Shown piece by piece: positions 19,811 through 58,459 of a stretch of DNA of 64,000 bases. Within the stretch, counting starts at the first letter, position 1. Each line of letters begins with the position of its first letter. The notes under the pieces were generated by a model that did no database searches, was not told the DNA's origin, and saw nothing but the letters and a program-made list of their open reading frames with translations. Source of the stretch: Platanthera guangdongensis. Lineage: Eukaryota > Streptophyta > Magnoliopsida > Asparagales > Orchidaceae. Location: contig CM077153.1 in NCBI GenBank assembly GCA_039583875.1, positions 65,666,482-65,730,481 on the forward strand. The letters are read 5' to 3'. The translations under genes and the position numbers were made by a program.

Positions 19811-21000
19811 TTAAACATCTTGAGGGATTGTGAGGTATACCTGACTGAACAGCTCTGGGTACTTTTGTCGCATCAGGTCCTGCGGTTTCCAGGTATGCTC
19901 CTCCTGTCCGTGGTTCCTCCACAAAACTTTGACTAACGGAACCTTCTTGTGACGCAAGATCCGTACTCCTTTGTCGTCGATCCGTACCGGCTCTAAGCGA
20001 ACTGACCGGTCTGAGGCTACCGGTCCATCTGTGGTCGAAATGTGTTGCTCCGGGCGTAATAGAGCCCTCCTGAGCGAGGAAATATGGAACACATCATGCA
20101 AGGCTTCCAGCTCTGGTGGCAACTCCAGCCTGTAAGCTAGGGGTCCGATCCGCACCAGGATCCTGTAAGGGCCCATATACCTAGGGCTGAGCTTCTTCTT
20201 CCGACCACGCACCCGTGAAACTCCATGCATAGGACGGATCTTCAGAAACACTCGGTCCCCCACCTGAAACTCCACCTGACGATGTCGGGCGTCATAGTAC
20301 TTAGCCTGTCTGCTCTGCACCTCTAGCATCCTGTCTCTGATCAGCCACACCTGAGCCTCGGTGTCTTCAACAAAATCCGATCCCAACACCTTCAGATCCA
20401 CATCCTGAATCCAAGAAAGCGGGGTCCTGCATTTCCTTCCATACAGGGCTTCGTAAGGCGCCATCCTGATGCTGGACTGGTAGCTGTTGTTATAGGAGGA
20501 CTCGACTAGGGGTAAGAGCTTCTCCCACGGTTCCCCGCGGTCCAAAATGCACAGCCTCAAAAGATCTTCCAGCGTACGTTGGCGCGCTCCGTCTGCCCAT
20601 CCGTCTGGGGATGGAATGCGGTGCTGAAGGTCAATCGCGTGCCTAAGTAAGCCTGCACGGATCTCCACTCCCTGGAAGTGAACCGGCCATCTCGATCCGA
20701 CACGATCGTCTTGGGAACCCCGTGATATCGAACGAACTGCTCCACAAATCTCCGCACTAATACTCCCACAGAGTCGTCCTTCCTGATCGGAATGAATCTG
20801 GCCACCTTCGTCAACCGATCGACGATGACCCAAATCGAGTCGTTTCCCGTCCGTGATCGGGGAAGTCCATGGATAAAGTCCATCGCGATGTCTTCAAACT
20901 TCCACTCCGGTACCGGGAGTGGTTGCAACAATCCTGCGGGGTTTTTGCACTCCGCCTTCACTAGCTGGCACGCTTCGCAGTGGGTCACAAACTGAGTGAT
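19811..21000 (-). pseudogene. Tekay-type integrase with chromodomain-like C-terminus (element D)
   Basis: On the minus strand, from about 21000 downward: the end of an HHCC zinc region (THCEACQLVKAEC), then the core with DFIHGLPRS (first Asp), VSDRDGRFTS (second Asp) and HPQTDGQTER (Glu). All three catalytic residues are present. Near 20578 the frame shifts by one missing base. The other frame continues through YGRKCRTPLSW, GDRVFLKIRP, RYMGPYRI and HDVFHISSLR to a C-terminus with KVPLVKVLWRNH and EEHTWK and a YPELF tail, typical of Tekay/Del chromoviruses, which target heterochromatin. It stops at 19811-19813. RT and RNase H that should precede it are absent, so this is a 5'-truncated, frameshifted remnant. 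Confidence 0.9.
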
Positions 21001-21240
21001 ATCCTATGTGTGAAAACCTCTAATTATATCCTCGAACTTCCACTCTGACTCGAGCATAGGCTGTAATAGTTTTCCCAAAAATTCTTGCACTTAACCTTCA
21101 TCGGCCGACAGACCTCACCGTGCGTCACCAAATCCATGACACCCTTCTTCACTCTAGGGAGAATCACTTTCCGAGATACACCAAACTTCTGGTGATTAAA
21201 TTTCTTATCTGTATGGGTAGACAACGACTCTATAAATTCT
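21001..21240 (-). pseudogene. Second, diverged integrase zinc-finger fragment
   Basis: The minus-strand translation (VILPRVKKGVMDLVTHGEVC) resembles the H2C2 zinc region that comes before a gypsy integrase core, with one Cys replaced by Gly. It overlaps in content with the zinc-region end at 20940-21000 instead of continuing it, so two copies of this region lie side by side. It is either an old relic into which D sequence was joined or a product of template switching. Confidence 0.55.
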
Positions 21241-21419
21241 CTACTTCACAATCAGATTCTTATCCTTATGAAAACGCCAGAGTAACAACAAATACGGTTT
21301 ACTCCATTCCACTATATTCACGACGCAAAGTTTTCTAGATAAGGTCTATGGGAAACCTAAGTCAATAACTACTTGCCCAATAAACAAAAGATCAGCCCCC
21401 AATAAACAAAAGATAAGCC
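21241..21419. other. Short rearranged spacer before element B
   Basis: It contains two close copies of CCCAATAAACAAAAGAT with AGCC (about 21381-21419), the last cut by B. The same words appear inverted at 36262-36294. No gene. Confidence 0.6.
21415..21419. repeat. Target-site duplication of element B, left copy (AAGCC)
   Basis: AAGCC at 21415-21419 recurs at 34309-34313 right after the B 3' LTR. Confidence 0.95.
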
Positions 21420-21563
21420 TGTTGGGTACATTGGTCAAATGTACCTGATTTGAAGAAGCCTCACCTAACTCAATGATATATATCATAGTGTATTTGATGT
21501 TTGTTTGAGTTACTTGTGCAGGTCAGGAATACACTGGACTGAAGCTAAAAATTCTAAGTCCAT

Positions 21564-22380
21564 GTGTCGACACCCAGAGGGAAAGTGTCGACACTTGAGA
21601 AAGCTTGTGTCGACACCCAGACAAGCAGTGTCGACACTTGGAGTCATTGTGTCGACACCTGGGAAGAAGAGTCGACACCAGTCAGAAAGTGTCGACACTT
21701 GGAACTGTGTCGACACTCAGTGTAGAAGAATGCAGAAAAGCTGTGTCGACACTTAGCAGAAGTGTCGACACCTAGAAGAGCTGAGTCAACACCAGAAAGT
21801 GTCGACACTTGAAGTAAGTGTCGACACTCAGCAAAAGTCTGCAGAATCTAAGTACAAGTGTCGACACTCAACACAATGTGTCGACACTATGCAGAAGAGT
21901 CAACACTTGAAGAAAGTGTCGACACTCAGCACAATGTGTCGACACTTAGTTGAAGACTCTACACTTGAAGTAAGTGTCGACACAAGGAGCTGTGTCGACA
22001 CTTAGCAAAGATCAGAAAAGTTGCAAAATATTCTAAGTACAAGTGTCGACACTAAGGGAATGTGTCGACACTCAGCTGAAGAAACAAAAGTGAAGACTTG
22101 TGTCGACACCAAGAAGCAGTGTCGACACTTGACAGTTTCAACACATAAAGTTGTGTCGACACAAAGGAGTTGTGTCGACACTTAGAAGAATACAGTTGCA
22201 GAATGAAGTACAAGTACTTGTGTCGACACTCAATTTCAGTGTCGACACATGCAGAAGAAACTGTGTCGAGACATATAAGGAATTGTGTCGACACCTTGTA
22301 GACTTGTGTCGACACTTATACAACATGTGTCGACACTTGGCTTATAAGTGTCGACACTTAAGAACAGAAAGTCTCGACAC
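21564..22380. promoter_or_regulatory. GTGTCGACAC palindrome array in the U3 of B
   Basis: About 29 exact copies of the 10-bp palindrome plus several one-base variants, upstream of the TATA box. Early copies start at 21564, 21585, 21607, 21628, 21649, 21669 (variant), 21689 and 21707. This is a spacing of 18-22 bases, close to two helix turns. Later copies come mostly in pairs 17-22 bases apart. Bases between copies are not conserved, unlike a simple tandem repeat. The same array is in the 3' LTR (32462-33278) and, shorter, before ORF3. Confidence 0.95.
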
Positions 22381-22514
22381 TATCTGACAGTTAGAAGAAT
22401 TTCAAGAAGTGACTGGTTGACAAGACAGCTGCCGATCCAGCCGGTCTACATCAACTGTCAGTGATATCAGAAGTCTGTTATGAACCGGACCAGCCGGTTA
22501 CCATGAAGGAAGCC

Positions 22515-22522
22515 TATAAATA
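22515..22522 (+). promoter_or_regulatory. TATA box of the B 5' LTR
   Basis: TATAAATA in the context AGCCTATAAATAGGC, about 140 bases after the last palindrome. The 3' LTR copy is at 33413-33420. Confidence 0.85.
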
Positions 22523-23019
22523 GGCACTCATAGTCTACAGAAGATATTATTGAGATTAAGAGATTGATTGTTGAAGTAATATAGAAGTGGTTGACAAAGT
22601 TTTTACAGAGAGAGTTCAGATCTTTGTAAAAGTGATATATTGAGGATCAACACAAGAAGATCTTGCTGTGCATCAGCAGATCTAAGAAGTTGGAGAGAGA
22701 GAGCTCCAACTAAGTATTCAGTCTTTGGAACTAAGGCTGAGAAAAAGAATTCAGAGTCATCTGGATTTCAAGAAGCAGAGGTCAAGGAACAACTGCAGAA
22801 GATTCAGACTAATTCAGTTCTAATCAAGAAGCTTTGAAGGAAGCTAAGTCAGTTTGGATCTAACTGAGTTCTTCCAAGAACTCTTCAAGAATCTCTCAAC
22901 TCCTCTCCTATTTTCTGAGTTGTAGAGTTAACTATTGTACATTCTATTTTTACCTGTAGGATCCATTGGATCAGAGTGAATTGTAAGCCTATTTTATAAA
23001 GGCTGAGGGTAGGGCTTGG

Positions 23020-23140
23020 TTGCCTGAGTGTAGGAGTTAAAGAACTCTGAGTGTAGGCCTTAATTGGCTGAGTGTAGGCCTGGGTGGCTGAGTGTAGGCC
23101 TTTTGGCTGAGTGTAAGGCTTTGGGCCTGAGGTAGGAACC
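23020..23140. repeat. Short repeats GGCTGAGTGTAGGCC in LTR R/U5
   Basis: Four to five copies of CTGAGTGTAGGCC or close variants lie in tandem. A diverged equivalent (GAGGTAGGGTTCTT) is in the LTRs of A near 5190-5450. Confidence 0.85.
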
Positions 23141-23411
23141 TAGTTTGGTTCTGAGTTAGTGGAGAAGTTTGGCCGAATCTAGTACACTGCTAGATAGGCA
23201 AAGGGGGAAAGTGGATGTACCCAAAGATTGGGGAACCACTATAAATTAGTGTGTCTGCTGTGGTGTGCTGTGCTGTGCTGTGGATTACTTGTTTGATTTC
23301 TGTAATTGGTGTTAGCTGGAATAATTGTTGTGCTGCCAACAAAGTTTAAAATAAGGTTTAGGTCACCTATTCACCCCCCCCTCTAGGTGTTTAGGTACCA
23401 TATCTTTCAAG

Positions 23412-23424
23412 TGGTATCAGAGCC
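23412..23424 (+). other. Primer binding site of B (tRNA-Met)
   Basis: TGGTATCAGAGCC begins two bases after the LTR end and pairs with the initiator tRNA-Met 3' end. Confidence 0.95.
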
Positions 23425-23514
23425 AGGTTACTCAAAAAGGACTAACTGTCTGAGGAGATCCAGTTTGGCAGATTCAGTATAAGTCAGGAAACAGTTTCAA
23501 GAAAATCAAGAAAT

Positions 23515-25554
23515 ATGGGATCTTCAGAGAATCACAAGGAATTGGGTTCAATGAAACTGCCCATATGCAGAAAAGAGATATTTGGAATCTGGAAAGAAAG
23601 GGTAAGGCTGTTCATGGAGGCCTCTGACCCTAGGATCTACATCACAGTCAAGGAAGGGCCTTATGTGCCCATGAAGATTTCAGTCTTGGATGCTACACAG
23701 AGAACTCCAAAGGATTTTTCTGAGATGACCAAGGATGAGATTGTCCTAGCTACAATGGACAAAAGGGCACAGAACATCATAGTTAGTGCAATTGATGATG
23801 CCACCTTCCAGAACCTTATTCACTGTAAAACAGCAAAAGAAATGTGGGATACCCTCATTGTCTACATGGAAGGTTCTGAAGAAGTAAGACAAGATAGGAA
23901 ATCCTTGCTTAATCAAGAATATGAGAGCTTTAGGCAAGGAAGAGGAGATAGCATCACTGAATGCTACAAAAAGTTCTACAGAATTGTTAATGAACTCATG
24001 TCCTATGGAAGGGAGTTCACAAACTATGAATTGAATGATAAGTTCTTGAGGTCCCTAACCAAAGATTGGGACACTAAGATCTGTGCCATCAGAGAAATGG
24101 CAAAGTTGGGAGAAATTCCTCCTCCCACACTGTTTGGCAAGTTGTTATCTTATGAGATGCAATTGTCAGTAAGAAAAGAGGAGGAAAAGTCAACAAGGAC
24201 TGAACACAGGGAAAGGACTGTTGCCTTTAAGTCAGAAGTACCTAGAAAGAACAGGACTAAGTCATCAACTCCTCCTCCAGAGGTAGTTGAATCAGATTCT
24301 GATGAGTCTGTTAGCACTAAATCTACAAGCAGTGAAAGTGATGAAGACTTTGCTGCATTTACCAGACATTTTCAGAAATTCCTGAAGAAGAAACAGTGGA
24401 AGTCCAGACCTTCTTTTTCAAAAGGGAAAGAAGTTCAGTATCAGGAGAAGAAGCCTTCAAAGAAGGACAAGCAAAGGACAAAGACTAGCAAGGCAACTGG
24501 GTCTAAGATTGTGTGTTACTGCTGCAACAGACAGGGTCATGTAATTGCAGATTGTCCTGAAAGAAGGAAAGAATCCAGTGGCAAAAAGAAGACTCACTTC
24601 AAAGGAAAGAAGGAGAAGTCCTTTGTTGCAAAGAATGAGAAGACTCTTTCAGATATTTCTTCTTCAGACACTGAGACAGATGCTGAAGCCTATATAGGGC
24701 TATTTGCTGAAGAAGAAGAAGAGTTTATGCATATCATGGAATCAATCTATGAACAAGAAGAGGTTCAGTGCCAAGGACTAATGGCATTGACTGAAAGTAC
24801 CAAAATCCTGGAGCAGCCAGGACCTAGTCAGGTACAAAGTCCAACTCCAAGTTCTGATTCCAGTTCTAGTTCAGAGTCAGAATCATCTTCATCAAGTGAT
24901 GGAAGTGATTCTGAATCTGAGGGAGATATTCATCAGCTCTTAGATGAATACCAAGTACTGTTGCAAGCCTATAAGAAAAGCAAGATCCTAGCCAAAAGTC
25001 AGGCAAAGGAGATTGCTGATCTCAAGGCAGCTGCAACAGATTTTGAGAAGGAGTATGATCAAAAACTGAATGAAGTAGCCAGGCTGAAACACATTACTGT
25101 GATTCAGATGGGTACTATTACATTTAAAAATGATCAAATTAAGTTGCTGGAGATCAATCTCCAGAAGGAGAAAGAGCTAGTTGCTAGGTTTTCAAAACCT
25201 AAATCAGTGCTACCCTTGATTGATGAATTTGTTCATCATAAAGGAAAGGCTGGATTGGGTTTTGTTAAGCCTGTGAGGACTGTTCAGGATCAGTCCAAGT
25301 CCAAGGGCAAAGCCCCAACATTCAACAAGGCTGCTGTGGTCAAGACAGCAAAGGTTGTACCTAAGCAAAGGTACAACAAGTTTGAATGCTGGTGTTGTGG
25401 CAAGGTTGGCCACTTTGCCTTGGATTGTTGGCACAATGCCAGTGCCAAGTTGAGTAACAAGTTACCTGTTGGAAAGCCAGCAGGTAGCTATGTCAAATTG
25501 CAAACTAACAATCACCAAGGACCCAAGTTTACTTTGGGTTCTAAGGTTCATTAA
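23515..25554 (+). CDS. gag: Gag polyprotein of element B (679 aa)
   Basis: The ATG at 23515 is the first after the primer site and opens an unbroken frame. Residues 1-230 resemble the copia Gag (UBN2) fold, with MEASDPRIYITVKEGPYVP near 33-51. A first CX2CX4HX4C knuckle is at residues 334-347 (CYCCNRQGHVIADC). Acidic and Ser-rich segments follow (about 380-480), then a coiled coil (about 485-560). A second knuckle is at residues 625-638 (CWCCGKVGHFALDC). Two knuckles flanking a coiled coil is unusual next to the single knuckle of most copia Gags; the same layout is in A. Gag would package element RNA in cytoplasmic particles. The frame ends in TAA at 25552-25554, and pol follows in the same frame. 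Confidence 0.95.
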   Translation: MGSSENHKELGSMKLPICRKEIFGIWKERVRLFMEASDPRIYITVKEGPYVPMKISVLDATQRTPKDFSEMTKDEIVLATMDKRAQNIIVSAIDDATFQNLIHCKTAKEMWDTLIVYMEGSEEVRQDRKSLLNQEYESFRQGRGDSITECYKKFYRIVNELMSYGREFTNYELNDKFLRSLTKDWDTKICAIREMAKLGEIPPPTLFGKLLSYEMQLSVRKEEEKSTRTEHRERTVAFKSEVPRKNRTKSSTPPPEVVESDSDESVSTKSTSSESDEDFAAFTRHFQKFLKKKQWKSRPSFSKGKEVQYQEKKPSKKDKQRTKTSKATGSKIVCYCCNRQGHVIADCPERRKESSGKKKTHFKGKKEKSFVAKNEKTLSDISSSDTETDAEAYIGLFAEEEEEFMHIMESIYEQEEVQCQGLMALTESTKILEQPGPSQVQSPTPSSDSSSSSESESSSSSDGSDSESEGDIHQLLDEYQVLLQAYKKSKILAKSQAKEIADLKAAATDFEKEYDQKLNEVARLKHITVIQMGTITFKNDQIKLLEINLQKEKELVARFSKPKSVLPLIDEFVHHKGKAGLGFVKPVRTVQDQSKSKGKAPTFNKAAVVKTAKVVPKQRYNKFECWCCGKVGHFALDCWHNASAKLSNKLPVGKPAGSYVKLQTNNHQGPKFTLGSKVH

Positions 25555-25567
25555 TTTGTTTTGCAGG
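25552..25567 (+). promoter_or_regulatory. Gag-pol junction: in-frame UAA followed by a pyrimidine-rich CAG
   Basis: The stop is followed by TTTGTTTTGCAG and then pol, with no change of frame. Element A has TAA at 8050-8052 followed by ATTCTTATTTTACAG, also in frame. The conserved stop between two diverged copies suggests it is part of the design. Candidate mechanisms are stop read-through, or splicing that uses TTTTGCAG as an acceptor so that pol is made from a spliced RNA. Confidence 0.6.
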
Positions 25568-26751
25568 TGAATCCAAGTGACCATACCCCTACATGGTACT
25601 TGGATAGTGGTTGTTCCAGACACATGACTGGAACTAGGGGACTACTGAAGGACTATATCCCAATCAAAAATGGTCCAAAGGTGACCTTTGGTGGTTCTGA
25701 AAAAGGAATCATCAAAGGGTTTGGTAACATTTCTTCTAACCTTGTTACCATTACTCAAGTGGCTTATGTTAAAGGTTTGAAACACAACCTCATTAGTATA
25801 AGTCAATTAAGTGATGTAGGGTATGACATCTCATTTGTTCAAAATGGTTGTCATATCAAGAGGTCAAGTGATCAAGAGATCATTTTGACTGGATATAGAA
25901 AGAGAAATGTCTACTGCTTAGACATTATGGTTGAGAACAATTGTTCTCCAGTCTGTCTTGTAGCTAATGAGACAGTCTCTCAATGTGTCAAATGGCACAA
26001 GAGGCTTGCTCATCTTAATTACAAGACTATTGGCAAACTCTTTAGTAAAGAGTTAGTGAGGAATGGTCCTCAAGTTAAGTGTGTCAAAGATGGCATTTGC
26101 TCAGCTTGTCAAAAGGGCAAGCAGACTAAATCCACCTTTAGAAGCTTAGACAACAAAGATGCTGTGAGGTGTTTATACCTCTTGCATATGGATCTATTTG
26201 GTCCAATGCCAGTTCACAGCTTAGGTAGGAAGGTCTACACCTTTGTAGTTGTTGATGACTACTCAAGGTTTTCCTGGGTGTTCTTCTTAAAGCAGAAATC
26301 TGAAACACCTAGTGTCTTCTATAGTTTTGTTAAGCAAATTCAGAATGAATTGAACTGTACAGTGGTCAAAATTAGAAGTGACCATGGTACTGAGTTTCAG
26401 TCTGAAAGCATGACAAAGCTGTGTGAAGACTATGGGATATTTCAAGAATTCTCTTCACCTAGAACACCTCAGCAAAATGGCATTGCTGAAAGGAAAAATA
26501 GGACCTTGATAGAGGCTGGTAGAACCCTATTAAGTGATTCATCACTGCCAGAATATTTCTGGGCTGAAGCAGTAAACACTGCATGCCATGTGATAAATAG
26601 GGCTACCATCACTAAAAGGTTAAACAAGACCCCCTATGAAGTAGTGAAAGGCAGGAAACCAAATCTGTCCTATTTTAGGATCTTTGGTTGTAAATGCTTC
26701 ATACTTAACAATGGGAAGTCTTACTTAACTAAGTTTGCTGCCAAGTACTAA
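25561..26751 (+). CDS. pol: Pol of element B, part 1: protease and integrase
   Basis: Same frame as gag, directly after its stop; the listed start is a TTG and not a real initiation codon. Order: aspartic protease (WYLDSG, Asp codon 25603-25605), GAG-pre-integrase zinc region (WHKRLAHL near 25993, C..C near 26100), integrase core with MDLFGP, VDDYSRF, RSDHGTEFQ and TPQQNGIAERKN carrying the Asp, Asp and Glu catalytic residues. Protease cleaves the polyprotein; integrase inserts the cDNA. A TAA at 26749-26751 breaks the frame just before the conserved FVGYS block. Element A reads through this point with sense codons, so the stop is probably a recent inactivating mutation. Confidence 0.93.
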   Translation: MQVNPSDHTPTWYLDSGCSRHMTGTRGLLKDYIPIKNGPKVTFGGSEKGIIKGFGNISSNLVTITQVAYVKGLKHNLISISQLSDVGYDISFVQNGCHIKRSSDQEIILTGYRKRNVYCLDIMVENNCSPVCLVANETVSQCVKWHKRLAHLNYKTIGKLFSKELVRNGPQVKCVKDGICSACQKGKQTKSTFRSLDNKDAVRCLYLLHMDLFGPMPVHSLGRKVYTFVVVDDYSRFSWVFFLKQKSETPSVFYSFVKQIQNELNCTVVKIRSDHGTEFQSESMTKLCEDYGIFQEFSSPRTPQQNGIAERKNRTLIEAGRTLLSDSSLPEYFWAEAVNTACHVINRATITKRLNKTPYEVVKGRKPNLSYFRIFGCKCFILNNGKSYLTKFAAKY

Positions 26752-26757
26752 GAGGGA

Positions 26758-28728
26758 GTGTTTGTTGGGTACAGCAATAATAGTAAGGCTTATAGAGTCT
26801 ACAACTTGACTACACAAGTTGTAGAGGAATCTGTGCATGTAGTTTTTGATGAGTCACAACTAATTAACAATGAGTTGTCTAGTAGTGTGTGCAGCCCCAC
26901 AGGTCTTACTAAGAAGATGGACCAGCTAACCATAGAATATGTACCTGCTGCAAGACAGCAAGTAGAAGAAGATGGCTTATGTCCAGGGGGAGAACTACAT
27001 GTACCAGGAGCTGTAGAAGTACAAGGAACTCAGCTTGATGAAGATGCTGAAGAAGTTCAACCAGAAGTAAGGATGCCTCAAGCCAACAGGCATCTAAGGG
27101 ATCATCCAGTAGAGCTGATCATTGGAGATCCAAGACAAGGTGTTCAGACTAGAAGCAGAAATCAGAATGCTGTAGTATATTCAAGTTTTCTGTCTCAAAT
27201 AGAACCAAAGAAATTTGAAGAAGCTATACAAGATCCACAGTGGACTGAAGCAATGCAGGAGGAGCTTAATCAGTTCAAAAGGTGTAAGGTTTGGGATCTG
27301 GTTCCTAAGCCTAAAGATCACAATGTGATAGGAACAAAGTGGATCTACAGGAACAAGTTAGATGAACAAGGTGTCATCATTAAGAATAAGGCAAGACTGG
27401 TTGCAAAAGGATATAGGCAAGAAGAAGGTATTGATTTTGATCAAACCTTTGCTCCAGTAGCCAGACTGGAAGCCATAAGGATGTTCATGGCCTATGCAAC
27501 CTACCAAGGATTCAAAGTATACCAAATGGATGTGAAGTCAGCATTCCTTAATGGTAATTTAAAAGAAGAAGTATATGTGGAGCAGCCTTCAGGTTTTGTT
27601 GATTCTACTCTTCCACATTATGTCTATAGACTTAGGAAAGCATTGTATGGGTTAAAGCAAGCTCCTAGAGCTTGGTATGAAACCCTATCTAGTTTCCTCA
27701 TTGAGAACAAGTTCACAAGGGGGAAAATAGATAAGACTCTATTCCTTAGGGAATCTAGAGGCAAAGTAATACTTGTCCAAATATATGTAGATGACATTAT
27801 ATTTGGGTCTACTGAAAGTAGCCTTTGCAAAAAGTTTGTAAAGCTTATGCAAAGTCAATTTGAGATGAGTAGTATGGGAGAGCTGAAGTTTTTCTTGGGT
27901 CTCCAAGTTAAACAGACTGAAAGTGGCTTGTCCATATGTCAGTCAAAGTTCACCCTGGAACTCATAAGGAAATATGGTATGGATTCATCCAGTACCATGA
28001 AGACTCCTATGGGGTCAAGTATGTCTCTAAGCAAGGATGATGCAGGGAAACCTGTAGATGAAACCTTGTATAGAGGGATAGTTGGCTCTCTTCTATACTT
28101 GACTGCAAGTAGGCCTGACATTATGTATGCTACATGTGTTTGTGCCAGGTATCAAGCATGCCCCAAAGAGTCTCACTTGACTGCAGTCAAGAGAATATTG
28201 AGATATCTAAAGGGCACACCTTATCTAGGCCTCTGGTACCCTAGGAATGGAGATTTTGATCTAACAGGCTATTCAGATGCAGACTTTGCAGGATGCAAAG
28301 AAGATAGAAAGAGCACAACTGGATCCTGTCAATTCCTAGGTGGAAGACTCATTTCATGGAGTAGTAAGAAGCAAACCAGTGTGGCCATCTCCACAGCTGA
28401 GTCAGAATATGTAGCTGCAGGAAGTTGCTGTGCTCAACTTCTGTGGATTCAACATCAGCTAGAAGACTATGGATGTCAGGTAAGTAGAACTCCACTTTAT
28501 TGTGATTCTACTAGTGCTATTTCAATAGCTAACAACCCTGTATCACATAGTAGAACTAAACATATTGAGATTAAATATCACTTTCTTAGGGAGCATGTAG
28601 AAAGAAATGATATTGCACTTGAATATGTTAGAACTGATAATCAGATAGCTGATATGTTCACTAAGCCCTTAGATGAAGCTAAGTTTAATAGGTTCAAAAT
28701 TGAACTAGGTATGATAAACTTAGATTAA
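26758..28728 (+). CDS. pol: Pol of element B, part 2: reverse transcriptase and RNase H
   Basis: Continues the frame after the TAA at 26749. It begins with the integrase tail ([15 protein letters not shown]) and a variable linker. The RT follows: [52 protein letters not shown] and the catalytic YVDDIIFG (Asp codons 27790-27795). RNase H comes last: [43 protein letters not shown], with the [13 protein letters not shown] tail. It ends in TAA at 28726-28728. RT and RNase H copy the RNA into DNA inside the particle. All key residues are present, so only the upstream stop seems to disable the copy. Confidence 0.95.
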
Positions 28729-29242
28729 GTATACAGAACAAAAATTGGCTAAGTAAAAAGGTGTCGACACATAGACAAGTCTATGTCGACACAGAATAGT
28801 AAGTGTCGACACTTCAGGAAAATGGTGTCGACACATCTAGGAAGTTAGTGTCGACACTTCAGAATGTTAGTGTCGACACATGTCGAGTAGGTGTCGACAC
28901 ATCCAATGTAGTGTCGACACTTAAGTTTTACTCAGAATTTTTCTAAGTAAAGTCTCGACTACATGTCGAGTAGTGTGGTGTCGACACTTAACCAAGTGTC
29001 GACACATAAAATCTGTTGACTAAATTTATGTCGACACATGAGTGTCGAGACATTATAAGTCAGTGTCGACACTTAATGTCAGTGTCGACACATGTTTAGC
29101 TCACTATCCCGCCTGTTCATCTTCAAAACTCAACAGGTATAAATAGAGTTCTGTTTGTGTTTGTCGACACGCTTTCAGAGTTTCGAGACTAAACTCCTGT
29201 GTCGACATTTCTCTTCTCCAAAGACTAATTCTCAAAACCCTA
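28729..29242 (+). promoter_or_regulatory. LTR-like promoter module between pol and ORF3 of B
   Basis: 514 bases without a gene. From 28761 to about 29095 there are about eleven exact GTGTCGACAC copies and variants, the same word as in the U3. They are followed by TATAAATA at 29138-29145, 98 bases before the ORF3 ATG. Array, TATA box and coding start thus repeat the order of the LTR promoter. A separate transcript for ORF3 is the simplest reading, which is inference. The array cannot be a plain copy of the LTR because the bases between the motifs differ. Confidence 0.8.
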
Positions 29243-32023
29243 ATGGCTCCCAAGCTGGAAGAGAACGTAAACGAAGGCTATGAGCTCGTGCGAGGTGCAT
29301 TCGACGACGGAGATCGTGAAATCAAATCAGTAATAACCCTAGTCAGCAATTCAGGATTGGAGTTCTTGGTTTCAGAACCAACCAAGATATGGAAGAAAGA
29401 GGTGCTTGAATTTCTTACTGGAGCGTCTGTAGATGACTCAGGCTACAGAATTAAGTCAAGGGTGCATGGCACCAAGGTCAAAGTATCACCCAAAAGTCTG
29501 CGAAAGGTACTTCAGCTACCTAAAGTTCAGGAAGAAGAGGAAGTCACAACATCAAAGACCAAAGATGCTTTGGACTGGTGCGGTCTTGATCCTAAGATGA
29601 AAATAGGATCAGTTTTCAACAGGAAGGGGATGAACAATCAAGGCAAATTCCTGTCTGAAGTTGTAGGCAAGGTTATTCTAAGCAAACCAGGAGGGCATGA
29701 CAGGGTGTCAGCCTCTATGTTCAGTATCATGACCAGAATCATCTTCAATCTTAAGACAGACTGGTCTATGATTGTATTTGAGAAAGTAAAAGAAAGTCTG
29801 AAGAAGCCCAATCTGGGCAGGATACTAAGTCTCTACCTGGCTGGATCAATTCCAGAGGTAATGAGCTCTGCTGCAGGAACAAAAATCAATCACATGAGGA
29901 GAATGGACTCAAGAATATTCTCTAGATGGGAAAGGGTGCTGGTGTCAAAGGAATTGACCACCCCTGAAAAGCAAGCTTCTAAGAAAGACTCTCCTCCCAG
30001 GAAGAAGAGGAAGACTGCTGCTGTGCCTCAAGAGTCATCCAGCAGCTCAGGCAGTGAAGAACATGTGGTCTTCACTCCTGATAGTCCAATGGATAAGGCT
30101 GCAGAGAAGACACCTGCTCCTCAAGAGTCAGCTAACATCCAGGGGGAGCTTCCAGGTGTAGCAGAACCATCTACACTGGAGAGTGAGCAAGCCACCCTCC
30201 TCATTCAAGAGGTACTTGTTGACCTTAATACTTTGAATTTTTCTATAATAAATTCTGATTTGTCTGATGATCATCAGCAAAATCAGCCAGCAACTCAAGA
30301 ACCAGATGTTGTTCTCCAAGACACATCTGTTGTAGCTGATGAAACCAGAACATCTCCTGCACAGTCTCCAGCAGAATATACAATGGAAGACCTATTTTTG
30401 AATTTAGATCAGGATGATTTTGATATGGAAAAGAATGCTGCTGATGCAGTGAAGGATGCTGCTGCTGAGGGGGAGAATTTGGATATTCTAGTAGAGCCTA
30501 TAAGGCTAGATACTGAGAAGGCACAAGATGTGCACACTGAAAAACCATCCAGCCCTAAGGATATGGTGGATATTGCCAGTACATCAGAATCTGAAGATGA
30601 TGAAGCTGAGCAAGCTAAGAAAAAGAAGTTCTTTGTTTTCAAAAGAAGGAGCCAGAGCTACAAGAAGGCTCTCCAAACTGTTGCACAACATTCCTTAGTT
30701 CAACAACCTCCATCCACTGATTACAGTGCTCTACTGCTTGCCATGCAAATCAAGATGGATGAACAAAGGAAGGCTTTAGAAACTTATGTTGATGAAGGGC
30801 ACAAGGCACTACAATCTGATCTGGGACAGGAAATCAAGTCAATAAGGTTTGAAATGAACCTTAATAAAAAGGAAATGACTGATTGTTTTACAAAGGGTGC
30901 TCATGCAGTGGTCTATCTGGCTAAACATCAAGAAACAATCAAAGAGAAAGTAGACGATATAGCACTAAAGCAAGGCTATGTGCTGGAGAATCAACTCAGG
31001 ATGAATGATAACTTGACTGCATCTCACAATGCAATAGTCACTGAACTCAAGAAAAAGTCTGATGAACCATCAACCTCCTCTGCTGCTGCCAAAGCTGCTT
31101 TTGATAAACTCTTTCAAGCTGAACTAACTGCTATCAAGACTGCCATCAAGGACTCCCAGAAGGTCATTTCTGAACAGCTTACCAAGCTAAGACCTTTCTT
31201 TAAAGAGGGCATAAGATATTTGGACAGCCAAATAAGGTTCCAGAAAGATGATGTGAGAGATCATGTAGCCCAAGAAGTCATAAAGGGGGAGAGAGTGTTA
31301 GTCAAGGCCAGTTCTGAGCATGCCAAATGGATTTCAAATTCAATCAGGGCTACACTTGGATATCCTCCCCTGTGTGATGACAATGAAGTAGCTGAATCTG
31401 GTATTCAAGGAACATATCTTGGAGGTGAGCAACAGGCAGTGGCTGATGTAATCTATCCACCTCCAGATTTTGAAATGATTCATGCAGATATAAGCACAAT
31501 GTATAGTCCAACTGCTGGTAAGCCTAATATTATTCTGGAAAAGGTTGTTCAACCTATCACAGCTGCTATGCAAGAGGCTTTGGACAAAGAAGAAGAGACT
31601 AGGCTATCAAAGAAGAAGTTCAGGGAACTTGCTGAACAAAAACCTGATTTTGAACAGTGGAGCCCTACTTCTAGGAACATCATTCTCACTGCATGGAAAG
31701 CAGCCAAGGACAATGCCCATGAGAGGAACAAGTGGTTCTCAGAGGCTGAATGGAGGAAACATGAGAGTAGGCAGGAAGCAATTGTCCAATATAGAAGAAA
31801 GGCTAAGTTAGGAAAGCTACCTCCTACAGCTGTGGAGCCTAGCAAGTACTTTCCTAAGCCCTATCATTATTTTGAAAGGCAAAAGATCAAGGCTGAAGAA
31901 CAGAAGAAGAAGGACTCCAAAGGGAAGAAGCCTGCTGAAGCTGAGCCTGCTGCTGCTGCTGCTGTGAAAGCCAAAGTGCAAGCTGGAAAAGGCATAGTCA
32001 TTAAAGAACCAGAGCAGAATTAG
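29243..32023 (+). CDS. ORF3 of element B (926 aa), Sirevirus 3' ORF of unknown function
   Basis: The ATG at 29243 is the first after the TATA box, and the frame is open for 926 codons. Residues 1-230 form a likely globular domain (GYELVRGAF, VLEFLTGASVDDSGYRIKS, HGTKVKVSPKSLRKVLQLP, NHMRRMDSRIFSRW). I believe it belongs with the plant-retroelement ORF families annotated as putative plant transposon protein or retrotransposon ORF-1. A basic patch (PPRKKRKTA) is near 253, then an acidic, Ser/Asp-rich middle. A second basic patch (KKKKFFVFKRRSQSYKKA) is near 467-484, then long helical, coiled-coil-like segments (about 510-700). I see no signal peptide or membrane segment of usual length, so the label envelope-like, often used for ORFs in this position, has no support here. 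Two basic patches suggest a nuclear role. Element A keeps the same architecture. Confidence 0.9.
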   Translation: MAPKLEENVNEGYELVRGAFDDGDREIKSVITLVSNSGLEFLVSEPTKIWKKEVLEFLTGASVDDSGYRIKSRVHGTKVKVSPKSLRKVLQLPKVQEEEEVTTSKTKDALDWCGLDPKMKIGSVFNRKGMNNQGKFLSEVVGKVILSKPGGHDRVSASMFSIMTRIIFNLKTDWSMIVFEKVKESLKKPNLGRILSLYLAGSIPEVMSSAAGTKINHMRRMDSRIFSRWERVLVSKELTTPEKQASKKDSPPRKKRKTAAVPQESSSSSGSEEHVVFTPDSPMDKAAEKTPAPQESANIQGELPGVAEPSTLESEQATLLIQEVLVDLNTLNFSIINSDLSDDHQQNQPATQEPDVVLQDTSVVADETRTSPAQSPAEYTMEDLFLNLDQDDFDMEKNAADAVKDAAAEGENLDILVEPIRLDTEKAQDVHTEKPSSPKDMVDIASTSESEDDEAEQAKKKKFFVFKRRSQSYKKALQTVAQHSLVQQPPSTDYSALLLAMQIKMDEQRKALETYVDEGHKALQSDLGQEIKSIRFEMNLNKKEMTDCFTKGAHAVVYLAKHQETIKEKVDDIALKQGYVLENQLRMNDNLTASHNAIVTELKKKSDEPSTSSAAAKAAFDKLFQAELTAIKTAIKDSQKVISEQLTKLRPFFKEGIRYLDSQIRFQKDDVRDHVAQEVIKGERVLVKASSEHAKWISNSIRATLGYPPLCDDNEVAESGIQGTYLGGEQQAVADVIYPPPDFEMIHADISTMYSPTAGKPNIILEKVVQPITAAMQEALDKEEETRLSKKKFRELAEQKPDFEQWSPTSRNIILTAWKAAKDNAHERNKWFSEAEWRKHESRQEAIVQYRRKAKLGKLPPTAVEPSKYFPKPYHYFERQKIKAEEQKKKDSKGKKPAEAEPAAAAAVKAKVQAGKGIVIKEPEQN

Positions 32024-32317
32024 ACTAAGATTAAAACTGAAGAATGTTGTAATCAAACATTTTGTGTAAATCATTGAAAGTGTATTAACAACAATGTATG
32101 AACAATTTTTGATAAATATATATTTCATGATTGTTCAGTAGAATGTGTCTAATTCTTGTTTGTTCTGTAATGCTGAATGAGTATACATGTGTGCTTTATT
32201 ACATGTTTAAGTTTAACTCTGTTGTCATACATCTGTTTTACTTCATTTTATAATTTTTAATTATGAGTGATGTATATCATTGACTAAGGGTTATGACTTC
32301 TCCAAATAGGGGGAGAT
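32024..32317 (+). other. 3' untranslated stretch and polypurine tract of B
   Basis: AT-rich, no gene. It ends in CCAAATAGGGGGAGAT (about 32302-32317) directly before the 3' LTR. A has the same CCAAATAGGGGGAGAT at 59953-59968. This purine run would prime plus-strand DNA synthesis. Confidence 0.9.
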
Positions 32318-34308
32318 TGTTGGGTACATTGGTCAAATGTACCTGATTTGAAGAAGCCTCACCTAACTCAATGATATATATCATAGTGTATTTGATGTTT
32401 GTTTGAGTTACTTGTGCAGGTCAGGAATACACTGGACTGAAGCTAAAAATTCTAAGTCCATGTGTCGACACCCAGAGGGAAAGTGTCGACACTTGAGAAA
32501 GCTTGTGTCGACACCCAGACAAGCAGTGTCGACACTTGGAGTCATTGTGTCGACACCTGGGAAGAAGAGTCGACACCAGTCAGAAAGTGTCGACACTTGG
32601 AACTGTGTCGACACTCAGTGTAGAAGAATGCAGAAAAGCTGTGTCGACACTTAGCAGAAGTGTCGACACCTAGAAGAGCTGAGTCAACACCAGAAAGTGT
32701 CGACACTTGAAGTAAGTGTCGACACTCAGCAAAAGTCTGCAGAATCTAAGTACAAGTGTCGACACTCAACACAATGTGTCGACACTATGCAGAAGAGTCA
32801 ACACTTGAAGAAAGTGTCGACACTCAGCACAATGTGTCGACACTTAGTTGAAGACTCTACACTTGAAGTAAGTGTCGACACAAGGAGCTGTGTCGACACT
32901 TAGCAAAGATCAGAAAAGTTGCAAAATATTCTAAGTACAAGTGTCGACACTAAGGGAATGTGTCGACACTCAGCTGAAGAAACAAAAGTGAAGACTTGTG
33001 TCGACACCAAGAAGCAGTGTCGACACTTGACAGTTTCAACACATAAAGTTGTGTCGACACAAAGGAGTTGTGTCGACACTTAGAAGAATACAGTTGCAGA
33101 ATGAAGTACAAGTACTTGTGTCGACACTCAATTTCAGTGTCGACACATGCAGAAGAAACTGTGTCGAGACATACAAGGAATTGTGTCGACACCTTGTAGA
33201 CTTGTGTCGACACTTATACAACATGTGTCGACACTTGGCTTATAAGTGTCGACACTTAAGAACAGAAAGTCTCGACACTATCTAACAGTTAGAAGAATTT
33301 CAAGAAGTGACTGGTTGACAAGACAGCTGCCGATCCAGCCGGTCTACATCAACTGTCAGTGATATCAGAAGTCTGTTATGAACCGGACCAGCCGGTTACC
33401 ATGAAGGAAGCCTATAAATAGGCACTCATAGTCTACAAAAGATATTATTGAGATTAAGAGATTGATTGTTGAAGTAATATAGAAGTGGTTGACAAAGTTT
33501 TTACAGAGAGAGTTCAGATCTTTGTAAAAGTGATATATTGAGGATCAACACAAGAAGATCTTGCTGTGCATCAGCAGATCTAAGAAGTTGGAGAGAGAGA
33601 GAGCTCCAACTAAGTATTCAGTCTTTGGAACTAAGGCTGAGAAGAAGAATTCAGAGTCATCTGGATTTCAAGAAGCAGAGGTCAAGGAATAACTGCAGAA
33701 GATTCAGACTAATTCAGTTCTAATCAAGAAGCTTTGAAGGAAGCTAAGTCAGTTTGGATCTAACTGAGTTCTTCCAAGAACTCTTCAAGAATCTCTCAAC
33801 TCCTCTCCTATTTTCTGAGTTGTAGAGTTAACTATTGTACATTCTATTTTTACCTGTAGGATCCATTGGATCAGAGTGAATTGTAAGCCTATTTTATAAA
33901 GGCTGAGGGTAGGGCTTGGTTGCCTGAGTGTAGGAGTTGAAGAACTCTGAGTGTAGGCCTTAATTGGCTGAGTGTAGGCCTGGGTGGCTGAGTGTAGGCC
34001 TTTTGGCTGAGTGTAAGGCTTTGGGCCTGAGGTAGGAACCTAGTTTGGTTCTGAGTTAGTGGAGAAGTTTGGCCGAATCTAGTACACTGCTAGATAGGCA
34101 AAGGGGGAAAGTGGATGTACCCAAAGATTGGGGAACCACTATAAATTAGTTTGTCTGCTGTGGTGTGCTGTGCTGTGCTGTGGATTACTTGTTTGATTTC
34201 TGTAATTGGTGTTAGCTGGAATAATTGTTGTGCTGCCAACAAAGTTTAAAATAAGGTTTAGGTCACCTATTCACCCCCCCTCTAGGTGTTTAGGTACCAT
34301 ATCTTTCA
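32318..34308 (+). repeat. 3' LTR of element B (1,991 bp)
   Basis: Nearly identical to 21420-23409. Differences noted include one C fewer in the C run near 34280, two extra bases in the GAGAGA run near 33597, and about eight substitutions. It carries the same palindrome array (32462-33278) and TATA box (33413-33420). Confidence 0.97.
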
Positions 34309-35462
34309 AAGCCCCTACCAAATGGGACGCTTATACATTAGGACCTGCAAAACGACCCCTTAGTCTATAAGCTTGTGTGGGCAAGTTTATAAATTAAAGG
34401 TTAAATTCTTTATATATATAATGCTGTTATTAACCGACACCCCAATATATAAATTGGTATGAGACTTTTTATACGATGGGAGCCCTGTAAAAGATCCCTT
34501 GCTTATACATTCCGTATAAGTTAAGGTTATTTTTCATTATTAACAATTGACCAATTTCATCTTAGATTTGTAGTGAGGAATAATTTGAGCACGCTTCACT
34601 ATGGAGTTCCTTCACTTCTCATTTGGTGATGATTTGGTTTATAAATTATGTGGGTAGGACATGCAAAACGACCCCTTAGTATATAAGCTTGTGTGGGCAA
34701 GTTTATAAATTAAAGGTTAAATTCTTTATATATATAATGCTGTTATTAACCGACACCCCAACGTATAAATTGGTATGCGACTTTTTATACGATGGGAGCC
34801 CTGTAGAAGATCCCTTGCTTATACGTTCCGTATAAGTTAAGGTTATTTTTCATACTATGCTTTACTACCACATGTACTATAAAAATTGCTAGTATAGGTC
34901 CGCTGCCATCTGATTCTTGTTTACTCTCCACCTTCAAGTCCTCCCCTTTCTTCCTCTCCGCTCGGTGCCTAGGGGCCATGGGGGAAGGGGCATAGGATGA
35001 TAGGACTTAGTCTTTTAGACTAACGGTTTTCGAACCACATCATTTTAGGGGACCGTAGAGCCCAGCATAGAGGAGCAGCCCCAGAGGTCGGTACGCTTGG
35101 AGATCGGGCAGTCTAGTTCCGGAGTTCAGACGGCAAGGACTGTGAGTCCTGATCGCTACTAGTAGTTATATTAGTTTGCTTCCGCGTTGAGAGATTTGTA
35201 GTGAGGACATGATGTACTGGGCATGAGCCCAAGATCTTATATTTCTGTGTATCTGTGGACACTCCCTTCGTGGAGATTATTTACATATATATGTGATTTC
35301 TGTGGACTTGCTTTACTATTTTGCTACAGTTGCGATCGATTTGGCCGGCAGGATCGGCGTTTTGTAGTGATGACCTTCCCGGGTGCGAAGGTGTCACCGC
35401 AAAGCGACGGTTCTGGGCCTAAGACCCCGGTGTTTTAAAAAGAAAAAAAAGGGTCTTACAAG

Positions 35463-44368: not shown

Positions 44369-44479
44369 AATCATTATAATATAAGTATACAACTGATTGG
44401 TCGGTAAATAAGTCAACTCATTTAGATTCCAAGGGTAAACTTCATAAGAGTCGAGAATTTACACTTAAGAAAATCAAAA

Positions 44480-44682
44480 TTTTGACAAGTCTGTGTCGAG
44501 ACAACAAAAAGTGTATCGACACTATAAATAGTAATGTGTCAAGACACATGAAAGTGTGTCGACACATCTCGACAAACTTGTGTTGACACTCAAGACTGGT
44601 GTCGACACTAGGTTATTTCCTAAAAACTTAGAATAGAATTAGCATCACGCCTTTACAACTTCTGCGACATCTACTATAAATA
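44480..44682 (+). promoter_or_regulatory. LTR-like promoter module before ORF3 of A
   Basis: Copies of the A palindrome words (GTGTCGAGACA, GTATCGACAC, GTGTGTCGACACATCTCGACA) occupy about 44491-44610. TATAAATA follows at 44675-44682, 118 bases before the ORF3 ATG. Same order as in the LTRs of A and in the spacer of B. Confidence 0.8.
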
Positions 44683-44799
44683 GGGCAAGAAAGAAGGTGT
44701 CGTCTATGCTTACCTAAATTCGTGAGAGATTGATCCCTAAGTGTCGAGACCTAGAACTCCTTTTGTTGACACATCTTCTTCCTCAATTTCTCAATTCCA

Positions 44800-46222
44800 A
44801 TGGCTCCCAAGAATGACGATAACATCTTCGAGGGATACGAGCTGGTTCGTAATGGATTCCAGTCGGCGAATGATGAAATCAAGGAGGTGGTAAAACTGGT
44901 CATTGAAGCTGGCTTGGAGTATTTGCTTTCTGAACCAACAAATATCTGGAAAGAGAAGTGTCAAAATTCTTCTCCAATGCTTACTGGAATCAAATTCAAC
45001 AAAGATTAAGTTCAAGGTGAATGGAACAAAAGTGAAAATCACAACAATAAGACTGGCCAAGGTATTCCACATATCTAGAATTGACCAAGAAGAATAGTTA
45101 GACTATGCCAAAACCACAAATGCATTAGAATGGCGTGGATTGGATCCAACCACCAAGCTGGGAAGTACCCTGTTCTGCAAAGGTATGAACAATCAAGGGA
45201 AATTCCTGTCAGAAATAATAGGGAAGGTGCTGTTGTGCAGAATAGGAGCACATGACAGGATATCAGCCAACATGTTTCAGCTAATGGCTCAAGTAATATT
45301 CAAAGTGAAGACTGACTAGAGCAAAGTAGTCTTTGACAAAATTACAGAATGCCTTAAGAAGCCCAACTTGGGCAGAATAATAAGCCTCTACTTGGTACAA
45401 GCCATTCCTAATTGTCTGAACTTGAATACTAGAACAAAAATCAATCACATGCGCATAATGAATATGAGGATTTTATCTAGATGGGATAGAGTTCTATCTA
45501 AAGAGACATCTAGAGTGGTAAAGAAGCAAGAGAAAAAGAAGAAGAATGTAGTAGTGGAAGAAAATTCTTCCAGTAAATCTGATGGACAAGAGAGTTCAAG
45601 CTCAGATGACCAAGATGTTCCAGCCCCAGAAATTTCTCCTAGACCCTCATCTGAAATTAGGGAACAGATGCAGGGGGAGATAATACCAGAGAAGGAACAC
45701 ATTGAAGAAGAAAACCTCAATGTGCTTCCAACTTTAGAAAGTGAAATTGCAGGCAAAATAGTGATGGTTGTGCTCCATGACCTAAACAAAGAGGAAAGAC
45801 TGAATGATGCAACTACACAAGATCTGCAAATGACAGATGAAGAAACTGAAAACGCAATCAATAAGGAGACTGAAGAAGAAACTCTATTGGATAAAATAGA
45901 TGACATCCAAGGGGAGATAACTATAACTTTTGAGAACCTAGTTCCTGATATTGAAGTTCAGGAAGATGAAGTTCACTTGGAGGACATTAATATTGATAAA
46001 GAAGATGCAAGGGTTGAGGGGGAGTTGGACCCAGATACTAACAAAGCCAAAGAGAAACCAACAGTTAAAGAAGTAAATTCTTCTAAATCTGAGGAAGAAG
46101 AAGTGTCTCAGCTGAAGAAAAGTAAATTATTTGAAATGAAAAAGAGAAGTAGGAGCTACAAAAGGATTTTTCAGTCTGAACCAACTCCAGTTCCTCTAGA
46201 GGACTCAAGCTCCCTGCTAGTT
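44800..46222 (+). pseudogene. ORF3 of element A, 5' part
   Basis: The ATG at 44800 opens MAPKNDDNIFEGYELVRNGF, plainly homologous to B ORF3. A frameshift near 44980 moves it to the next frame, where TAG codons at about 45095 and 45317 interrupt it. The second is a Trp codon in B. From 45318 it is open to 46222 (KKPNLGRIISLYL, NHMRIMNMRILSRWDRVL), then an acidic middle with a basic patch (KKSKLFEMKKRSRSYKR). It is cut by element E at 46222 and continues at 58460 in the same phase. Confidence 0.9.
46218..46222. repeat. Target-site duplication of element E, left copy (TAGTT)
   Basis: TAGTT at 46218-46222 recurs at 58455-58459, right after the E 3' LTR. Confidence 0.95.
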
Positions 46223-46499
46223 TGATGAGTGCGATTATGATAGGCTTTTTACTATCATAATTGTAATCATGTCTGCTATTCCTACCTCATTTTGCAGTAA
46301 TTTCGCAAGAAAAGTCAAAGAATTGTTTTATCATGATTAGGAGAGCATAGTTAGGATCTTTGTTACTCCTTATATTGAGTTATCTAATTTATTACATCAC
46401 TTTTATATGCAGGTAGCGCTAACCAGTGGAACTAAAAGTCTTGGAGCAAACAAAGGAGTTCACAGAGTCAACATGAATGATGACAGGACAAAAATTTGG

Positions 46500-46790
46500 C
46501 GCACACGGGTGGACACACGGCCATGTGCCTACCCGTGTCCTATGCACCCTGGAGCTGAAGAAATTGGACGCAGGAGACAGAGACTCACACGGGTAGGAAT
46601 ACGCCCGTGTGCCTACCCGTGTCATATTTGAACACGACTGCCGACCAACCCATGTCTGAAGAACGTGAAGACCCACACGGCCATGTCAGTACCCGTGTCA
46701 TCTGACACGTCCCACTACCAGACACGCCTGTTCATGGGGAACCGCCTAGGAACCATCCACACGGCCGTGTTGGAACCCGTGTCCGACCTG
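46500..46790. promoter_or_regulatory. ACACGG / CCGTGT palindrome array in the E U3
   Basis: Four clusters (about 46502, 46587, 46673 and 46759) each pair ACACGGGT or ACACGGCC with CCCGTGT on the other arm; ACACGGCCGTGT at about 46761 is a perfect 12-bp palindrome. The array ends 15-20 bases before the TATA-like box. The 3' LTR has the same array (about 57171-57470). Confidence 0.9.
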
Positions 46791-46803
46791 TTTGCAAAGG
46801 GAC

Positions 46804-46810
46804 TATATAT
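46804..46810 (+). promoter_or_regulatory. TATA-like box of the E 5' LTR
   Basis: GACTATATATTT directly downstream of the palindrome array; repeated at 57487-57493. Confidence 0.7.
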
Positions 46811-47824: not shown

Positions 47825-47842
47825 TGGCGCCGTTGCCGGGGA
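47825..47842 (+). other. Primer binding site of E (tRNA-Asp type)
   Basis: TGGCGCCGTTGCCGGGGA, the standard Athila/Tat primer site, begins six bases after the LTR end. Confidence 0.95.
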
Positions 47843-47966
47843 CGTTTTCAATATTTCGAAAGTCCAAAATTTATTAATCTACCAGTTTTTGTTTAGTAAT
47901 AAATAGTTGTAAATTATTATTTGAATAATTATATTGCTTAATCTCTGTTTTGTAGTCTGTTAGTCT

Positions 47967-50504: not shown

Positions 50505-50558
50505 CAAATATCTAATATAAAGGGTATTAATCCTAGTTTTTACACTCATAAAATCCTT

Positions 50559-56878: not shown

Positions 56879-56893
56879 AAGTCTGGGGGTATT
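56879..56893 (+). other. Polypurine tract of E
   Basis: AAGTCTGGGGGTATT lies directly before the 3' LTR. Confidence 0.85.
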
Positions 56894-58454: not shown

Positions 58455-58459
58455 TAGTT

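Follow-up and report, generated by a model that had tools for sequence, protein, structure and literature searches.

Paired palindrome arrays before the LTR and ORF3 TATA boxes of an orchid Sirevirus, with a parallel layout in an Athila-like element

Sireviruses and some Gypsy elements carry an extra gene whose origin has been described as unknown and whose function as unproven (MASiVEdb, PMC3414828). We analysed a 64,000-nucleotide stretch of the orchid Platanthera guangdongensis (contig CM077153.1, positions 65,666,482 to 65,730,481; hereafter the window) that holds a young Sirevirus, element B. In this long terminal repeat (LTR) retrotransposon the extra gene is the open reading frame ORF3, and a field of short palindromes stands both upstream of the TATA box in the LTR and upstream of a second TATA box before ORF3. 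We suggest, from the sequence, that element B has two co-regulated RNA polymerase II promoters that share a design and are served by a single dimeric factor, a reading to which we give a probability of about two in three.

The closest described system is that of Bousios et al. (2010, PMC2829016). There, arrays lie in Sirevirus LTRs and upstream of the envelope-like gene (ENV), where an internal promoter was suggested. Copies in the linker occurred in all nine ENV-bearing Sireviruses with the repeated motif (RM), 77 of the 79 copies upstream of ENV, and in none of the four RM elements without ENV. Element B resembles these elements in its high-copy palindromes at the LTR TATA box and at the extra ORF, in its CpG islands (the arrays were the sole predicted CpG islands of seven RM Sireviruses) and in having one consensus word per element. 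It differs in its core, which is TCGA, whereas 12 of the 13 published words contain CGG-CCG (the exception is Tnd-1), and in having an explicit TATA box before ORF3; in the published elements the authors could not pin one down conclusively. The window adds a count of the absence of CpG in gag-pol and a parallel in a Ty3 element. The preliminary description of this DNA took the second array before ORF3 to be possibly undescribed. It was published in 2010 for nine elements, and as the idea of an internal promoter has been in print for as long, the hoped-for novelty is mostly gone.

Other systems share parts of the arrangement. VANC proteins of VANDAL transposons (Hosaka et al. 2017, PMC5735166) also involve clusters of short motifs in non-coding element DNA that vary between relatives, and the reader here may likewise be encoded by the element. 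VANDALs, however, are DNA transposons for which binding and demethylation have been shown, whereas binding by ORF3 is a conjecture. Among Athila-lineage Ty3 elements, sunflower Athila 14 has a sense ORF after pol with the PF20167 domain and a predicted nuclear location, so that such an ORF in an Athila element is already published (PMC11728184); the sections of that report used here do not mention paired word arrays, which the Athila-like element of the window has. The words ‘palindrom’, ‘promoter’ and ‘tandem’ are absent from the main text of a paper on Arabidopsis Athila (PMC2410132). TRP28 of Retand, which is predicted to bind DNA (PMC11963269), is like ORF3 an accessory protein encoded between pol and the 3' LTR, and tandem repeats lie in that region of Retand. 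Unlike ORF3 it is antisense and has another domain, and repeats shared with the LTR go unmentioned in the sections used. The MAIN/MAIL1 plant mobile domain proteins are a family derived from transposable elements (TEs); they are linked with the silencing of TEs and with a promoter motif called ‘DOWN’ (PMC7156037). A literature search found neither paired arrays in Athila-type elements nor a link between Sirevirus and Athila ORFs through PF20167; the search was limited, so this absence is weakly supported. The Athila parallel, with another word before a PF20167-type ORF, and the CpG pattern of element B are possibly new.

Arrays, TATA boxes and ORF3 of element B

The word of element B, GTGTCGACAC, has 127 matches with at most one mismatch in the window, against 0.78 expected. 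Its half-sites, GTGTCGA/TCGACAC, are dense in exactly two places in the element, as the preliminary description had observed: 61 lie in the 5' LTR upstream of the TATA box and 27 in the 514-bp stretch that separates pol from ORF3 (28729-29242), with none in the LTR downstream of the TATA box, the 5' untranslated region and gag, pol, ORF3 or the 3' linker. Local dinucleotide shuffles of the two dense stretches (500 each) gave maxima of 3 and 2 half-sites. A 7-mer scan without a preset word (400-bp windows, at least six copies of one word) reported only array stretches, namely those of element B, of the LTRs of an older Sirevirus (element A), of a further element with the same half-site (element E) and of the Athila-like element. 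The clustering is real and not due to chance.

The LTR array (21564-22380, +) contains 32 TCGA-centred sites, 29 of them exactly GTGTCGACAC, and is followed by the TATA box TATAAATAG at 22515-22523 (+). Between pol and ORF3 lies the second array (28761-29091, +), with the second TATAAATAG about 50 bp 3' of it (29138-29146, +). Two further near-copies of the palindrome and one degenerate copy stand between this TATA box and the start of ORF3 (29161-29208, +), and 11 of the 20 TCGA-centred sites in the pre-ORF3 stretch are exactly GTGTCGACAC. Element B has the arrangement of the published RM arrays: a palindromic word in at least eight copies, upstream of the LTR TATA box and upstream of the extra ORF. 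On the plus strand of the window TATAAATAG occurs eight times. Six of these copies are at LTR or ORF3 TATA sites (4815, 22515, 29138, 33413, 44675, 60916), one is in the array of element A (44523) and one elsewhere (2476); the minus strand has a single copy. In A as in B the same box stands in the LTR and before ORF3, within flanking sequence that is unlike.

Neighbouring sites in the LTR array of element B are 18-24 bp apart in 22 of 31 intervals (random mean 6.9; reached in 0 of 5000 random placements) and in the pre-ORF3 stretch in 11 of 19 (random mean 4.5; reached in 15 of 5000), a spacing of about two helical turns. A 10-bp palindrome at two-turn spacing would suit dimers lined up along the same side of the helix. 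The ten word positions of the LTR array carry 1.8-2.0 bits of information, and the flanks at most 0.75 at 13 of 14 positions and 1.0 at the other. With the words masked, what the LTR and pre-ORF3 stretches still have in common is one 13-bp match in B (E 0.89), one 10-bp match in the Athila-like element (E 0.66) and eight short matches in A (E 0.19-0.65). As the masked stretches are nearly without likeness in all three elements, the second array is no recent copy of the LTR.

ORF3 (29243-32023, +) runs from an ATG at 29243 to a stop at 32023 and encodes 926 amino acids. The DNA between pol and ORF3 has stops in all three frames (9, 8 and 9), so that ORF3 cannot be read on from pol and needs its own start or splicing. 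Its predicted leader contains no upstream ATG. The array, the TATA box, this leader and the stops agree with the separate ORF3 promoter that had been proposed, which remains a prediction. The sequence AAACCCTA at 29230-29245, directly before the ORF3 ATG, resembles a telo-box. An accessory nuclear protein with its own promoter was reportedly described for Grande by Gomez-Orte in 2013.

The N-terminal part of ORF3 has a weak but significant match to PF20167 (Transposase_32), with 26.3 bits and E 7.8e-6 for the N-terminal piece and E 8.4e-5 for the whole frame; the gathering cut-off of 45 bits is not reached. The Pfam listing otherwise held chance-level matches only, with none to PF03078 and none to the plant mobile domain, to which PF20167 may be related. 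A PDB sequence search returned three chance-level matches (E 0.18-0.46), and NCBIfam had no match to ORF3 or to the post-pol ORF of the Athila-like element. Scans of viral contigs gave 0 pattern matches for ORF3, 8 for the Athila-like ORF and 12 for the second pol piece, none of which was confirmed as a relative. Structure models were of low confidence, with a mean predicted local distance difference test score (pLDDT) of 41.0 for the ORF3 N-terminal domain (6-row alignment) and 32.9 for the Athila-like ORF (2 rows). The composition of ORF3 bears out the basic patches, the acidic middle and the missing membrane segment given in the preliminary description. There are basic patches near residues 251-257, where the stretch is SV40-like, and 459-475, the net charge over residues 281-440 is -27, and no membrane segment was found, the highest 19-residue hydropathy mean being 1.26. 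The usual threshold for a membrane-spanning segment is about 1.6. These features support a protein that is nuclear rather than envelope in character.

Element B as a whole (21420-34308, +) is flanked by a 5-bp target-site duplication, AAGCC, read from the flanks. By BLAST its 5' LTR (21420-23410, +) is 99.5% identical to 32318-34309; the 3' LTR (32318-34308, +) has its array at 32462-33278 and its TATA box at 33413. The pair differs at 7 positions over about 1990 bp and at none of the 72 CpG positions upstream of the TATA box. The gag frame (23446-25554, +, stop to stop) matches Retrotran_gag_2, with a zinc knuckle below its cut-off, and the pol frame (25555-28728, +) matches integrase and RVT_2 and has one in-frame stop (26749-26751). 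Element B is therefore a young copy that is not intact. The Pfam order, Copia-type gag followed by integrase and then RVT_2, is that of Ty1/copia, to which the Sirevirus (SIRE) lineage belongs. The primer-binding site (PBS) TGGTATCAGAGC at 23412 adjoins the LTR, the terminal polypurine tract GGGGGAGA (32309-32316, +) adjoins the 3' LTR, and a poly-C signal lies near the LTR ends at 23374 and 34274. Extra copies of GGGGGAGA occur at 26986 in pol and at 30469 and 31285, both in ORF3; the additional polypurine copies of published Sireviruses were counted in the linker (PMC2829016). The PBS, the terminal and extra polypurine tracts and the poly-C signal match features given in that paper, and by its domains and signals element B is a Sirevirus. 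Rfam gave no match at gathering score in 21000-34500.

Parallel layouts in an older Sirevirus and an Athila-like element

Element A (3868-61800, +) is an older Sirevirus, with LTRs that are 90.5% identical and an intact target-site duplication, ATCCT. It is split by nested insertions, one at 10260-43875 that holds element B, the other the Athila-like element, which sits inside ORF3 of A. The arrays near 4, 44.5 and 60 kb are all parts of this one old element, which corrects an earlier reading. Element A repeats the layout of B, with an LTR array, a TATA box and a small group of sites ahead of a broken ORF3. These pre-ORF3 sites (44451-44747, +) are a mix of GTGTCGAGAC and GTGTCGACAC, six TCGA sites upstream of the TATA box at 44675 and one downstream of it, with the ORF3 start at 44800; seven TCGA sites and seven half-sites fall below the threshold of the 7-mer scan. 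In the LTRs the less symmetric GTGTCGAGAC/GTCTCGACAC class is commonest, with 18 of 37 sites over both LTRs, and 3 sites are perfect and 16 other. Spacings of 18-24 bp make up 11 of 19 in the LTR of A (reached in 1 of 5000 random placements) and 6 of 10 in element E (30 of 5000). Between ORF3 of A and ORF3 of B, identity is 57% in the first 53 residues, 37% over a further 443 alignment columns and, in the C-terminal part, 47% over 72 and 40% over 386 columns.

The Athila-like Ty3 element (46221-58459) has LTRs at about 46222-47822 and 56893-58459 and a PBS-like sequence, TGGCGCCGTTGCC, at 47825. It carries twin arrays of another word, ACACGGG/CCCGTGT. One lies in the LTR (46503-46782, +), with a TATA-like TATATAT at 46804, and the second 3' of pol (53415-53822, +), with TATATAT at 53831, ahead of a post-pol ORF (53986-55047, +). 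Hexamers of the form ACACGG/CCGTGT number 11 in the LTR array, 14 in the second array and 1 in the 5445 bp of gag-pol, and there are none in the post-pol ORF or in 55048-56891. A 36-bp frame, ACACGG-N24-CCGTGT, recurs at 46503 and 46587 in the LTR array and at 53518, 53673 and 53787 in the pre-ORF array; elsewhere in the window it occurs only at 57258, in the 3' LTR of the same element. Three half-sites of the Sirevirus word, GTGTCGA/TCGACAC, also lie within the Athila-like pre-ORF array (53453-53686).

The post-pol ORF matches PF03078 (ATHILA ORF-1) with 35.5 bits (E 6.9e-9), above the gathering cut-off of 20.2, and PF20167 with 30.2 bits (E 5.2e-7), which is significant but below the 45-bit cut-off. 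As BLASTP of the ORF3 N-terminus against this ORF gave no significant match (best E 1.4), the two are linked through the shared PF20167 profile, and their common origin is likely, not proven. Judged by these profiles, twin arrays, with words that differ, accompany a PF20167-type ORF in Copia as well as in Gypsy elements.

Two further sequences lie near the end of the window. At 63078-64000 another LTR-like start (TGTTGG) is followed by a GTGTCGACAC array at 63241-63555 and by a cluster of TCGACGA at 63597-63871, and is cut by the window end. Judged by eye, the stretch 61806-63077 is a remnant of another Copia-type frame, into which that last LTR seems to be inserted.

The CpG footprint and the two-promoter reading

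Element B contains 108 CpGs, of which 80 fall within copies of the word that have no more than one mismatch. Of the 108, 105 lie in 28729-29600 or in the array-to-TATA stretches of the two LTRs, regions that together make up 2784 of 12890 bp and were drawn after the CpG list was seen. There is no CpG in the 5283 bp of gag-pol (23446-28728) of this element, whose LTRs are 99.5% identical. Gag and pol have more TpG and CpA than expected (observed/expected 1.26-1.37), as deamination of methylated CpG would leave behind. The gag-pol region of element A is also CpG-poor, with 9 in 4562 bp and 0 in 493 bp. Upstream of the TATA box, LTR pairs diverge faster at CpG than at other positions, both in A (10/52 vs 80/896, p 0.024) and in the Athila-like element (8/56 vs 19/525, p 0.002); a CpG position was counted if either copy has CpG, a rule that leans toward more mismatches and tempers the comparison. 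CpG words thus decay after insertion, yet they are near-perfect in the young element B, which suggests that they are kept up in the transposing lineage.

From the anatomy, enrichment, spacing and CpG pattern observed in B, and from the recurrence of the layout in A and in the Athila-like element, we infer the transcription start before ORF3, the co-regulation of the two promoters and the dimeric reader. The LTR promoter would produce the genomic RNA and the internal promoter a separate ORF3 messenger. In each, CpG-containing 10-bp palindromes would form a field at intervals of about two helical turns, with TATAAATAG downstream of it, and one dimeric DNA-binding factor reading both fields would switch on ORF3 and the genome together. 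In the transposing lineage, CpGs would be kept at both promoters and lost in the element body. The base for generalising is the published table together with the two Sireviruses A and B, the Athila-like element and a single LTR that the end of the window truncates.

Several observations weigh against this two-promoter reading. An acceptor-like CAG stands directly before the ORF3 TATA box, so a spliced ORF3 RNA is also possible, and for Athila env splicing is a published prediction (PMC2829016). According to the same source, at least six ENV-containing Sireviruses lack the motif. The pre-ORF3 sites of element A are not phased (1 of 6 spacings, equalled in 2833 of 5000 random placements), and its predicted ORF3 leader opens with an upstream ATG, the only one in it. 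The TATA evidence is weaker in the Athila-like element, where CTATATAT, the TATA-like sequence, has six copies on the plus strand of the window and three of these are at its arrays. Nor does that element show the CpG contrast of B, with observed/expected values of 0.55 in gag-pol and 0.77 and 1.20 in the arrays. As its gag-pol keeps CpG, the footprint is here a Sirevirus feature and lies outside the parallel between superfamilies. In element A, CpG positions downstream of the TATA box also diverge faster (7/20 vs 75/863), so faster CpG decay is not special to arrays. Selection on the words alone can retain CpG, without lower methylation.

Possible readers of the arrays

If the two promoters share a reader, a host transcription factor has close to an even chance of being it. 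The palindromes would then be dense sites for a plant nuclear factor, related to stress, hormones or cell type, which both promoters borrow. The words of the RM Sireviruses mainly matched sites of stress-related factors in PLACE, and LTR arrays remain in all four RM Sireviruses without ENV (PMC2829016). The half-site GTGTCGA is common to A, B and E, although the aligned ORF3 parts of A and B are only 37-57% identical. TGTCTC, the auxin-response core, lies inside the TGTCTCGACAC form of element A. This explanation has difficulty with words that vary widely between families, both in the published table and here (GTGTCGACAC and ACACGGG), when the two arrays of one element have the same word, which would call for a different host factor in each family; moreover, in the words they described Bousios et al. 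found no shared site that would point to a single factor (PMC2829016). With arrays present without the gene, the gene present without the motif and a half-site shared by A, B and E, it is nevertheless the plainer choice.

It is possible, though we think it rather doubtful, that the reader is the ORF3 protein itself, binding its own word at both promoters as an activator, autoregulator or anti-silencer in the manner of VANC. ORF3 is of nuclear type without a membrane segment, the published second array is tied to the gene (nine of nine elements against none of four, PMC2829016), and the TRP28 accessory domain of Retand is predicted to bind DNA (PMC11963269). CpGs of element B survive almost only at the arrays, as expected if these are kept unmethylated. 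The recurrence in two superfamilies, around PF20167-type ORFs and with unrelated words, strengthens the case, being the pattern expected from a self-recognition module. Against it stand the PF20167 matches below gathering score, the poor structure models, the RM elements that retain LTR arrays without ENV and the ENV-containing elements that lack the motif. The proposal in the preliminary description that array word and ORF3 would co-vary also found no support within the window, where two Sireviruses could be compared. When position weight matrices (PWMs) from the LTR words of A and B were run on both pre-ORF3 arrays, the looser A matrix was favoured for both (sums +17.3 and +20.7), so that LTR and pre-ORF3 words are not seen to be coupled. 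Between the LTRs of A and B the ratio of perfect to GAGAC words differs strongly (3:18 vs 29:2; p 5e-9), whereas for the pre-ORF3 arrays the difference is not significant (2:2 vs 11:1; p 0.14); these ratios omit the sites that fit neither class (16 in the A LTRs, 1 in the B LTR, 3 in A pre-ORF3 and 8 in B pre-ORF3). In its fullest form, which we consider unlikely, self-recognition would be a portable cassette of plant LTR retrotransposons, in Copia (Sirevirus) and Gypsy (Athila) elements alike. An array-plus-TATA promoter would drive a PF20167-type nuclear protein that binds its own array and that of the LTR and keeps both promoters unmethylated and active; with element-specific words each family would wake only itself, as a retrotransposon counterpart of VANC.

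The remaining explanations give the arrays or ORF3 a different role. The palindromes might act in RNA, as transcript hairpins that feed or dodge small-RNA silencing or in RNA dimerisation, and palindromes in maize Sirevirus LTRs are hotspots of small-RNA mapping (PMC5311732). The pre-ORF3 array folds better than shuffles (z -11.2), as does the Athila-like array (z -5.6), but any palindromic DNA folds well, so the score does not discriminate; the position upstream of TATA boxes and the phased spacing point to DNA, and we find an RNA role improbable. Arrays of tandem repeats are frequent in some plant LTR elements, among them Retand, where roughly one in two of the elements studied has them (PMC11963269), and the arrays might be functionless by-products of slippage. 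This seems most improbable for words that are conserved between differing spacers, that recur in two separate and otherwise unlike stretches of three elements, always before a TATA-like box, and whose CpGs in element B outlast the loss of CpG elsewhere. It is just as improbable that ORF3 encodes a real envelope, with the array as no more than its promoter. The naming tradition favours an envelope, and published Sirevirus ENV-like proteins are reported to share transmembrane and coiled-coil domains, although the same paper allows that the gene may not be a true envelope (PMC3414828). ORF3 of element B has no membrane segment, and it has nuclear-type basic patches and a PF20167-type domain.

The parallel across superfamilies, together with the CpG footprint of element B, makes the idea of shared control or self-recognition testable. 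Even if a host factor reads the arrays, the paired promoters would account for expression of the extra gene. If the gene and the twin arrays are one control module in two superfamilies, the question of whether the gene encodes an envelope becomes a simple binding test, and the host silencing of these abundant elements would gain a possible counter-system.

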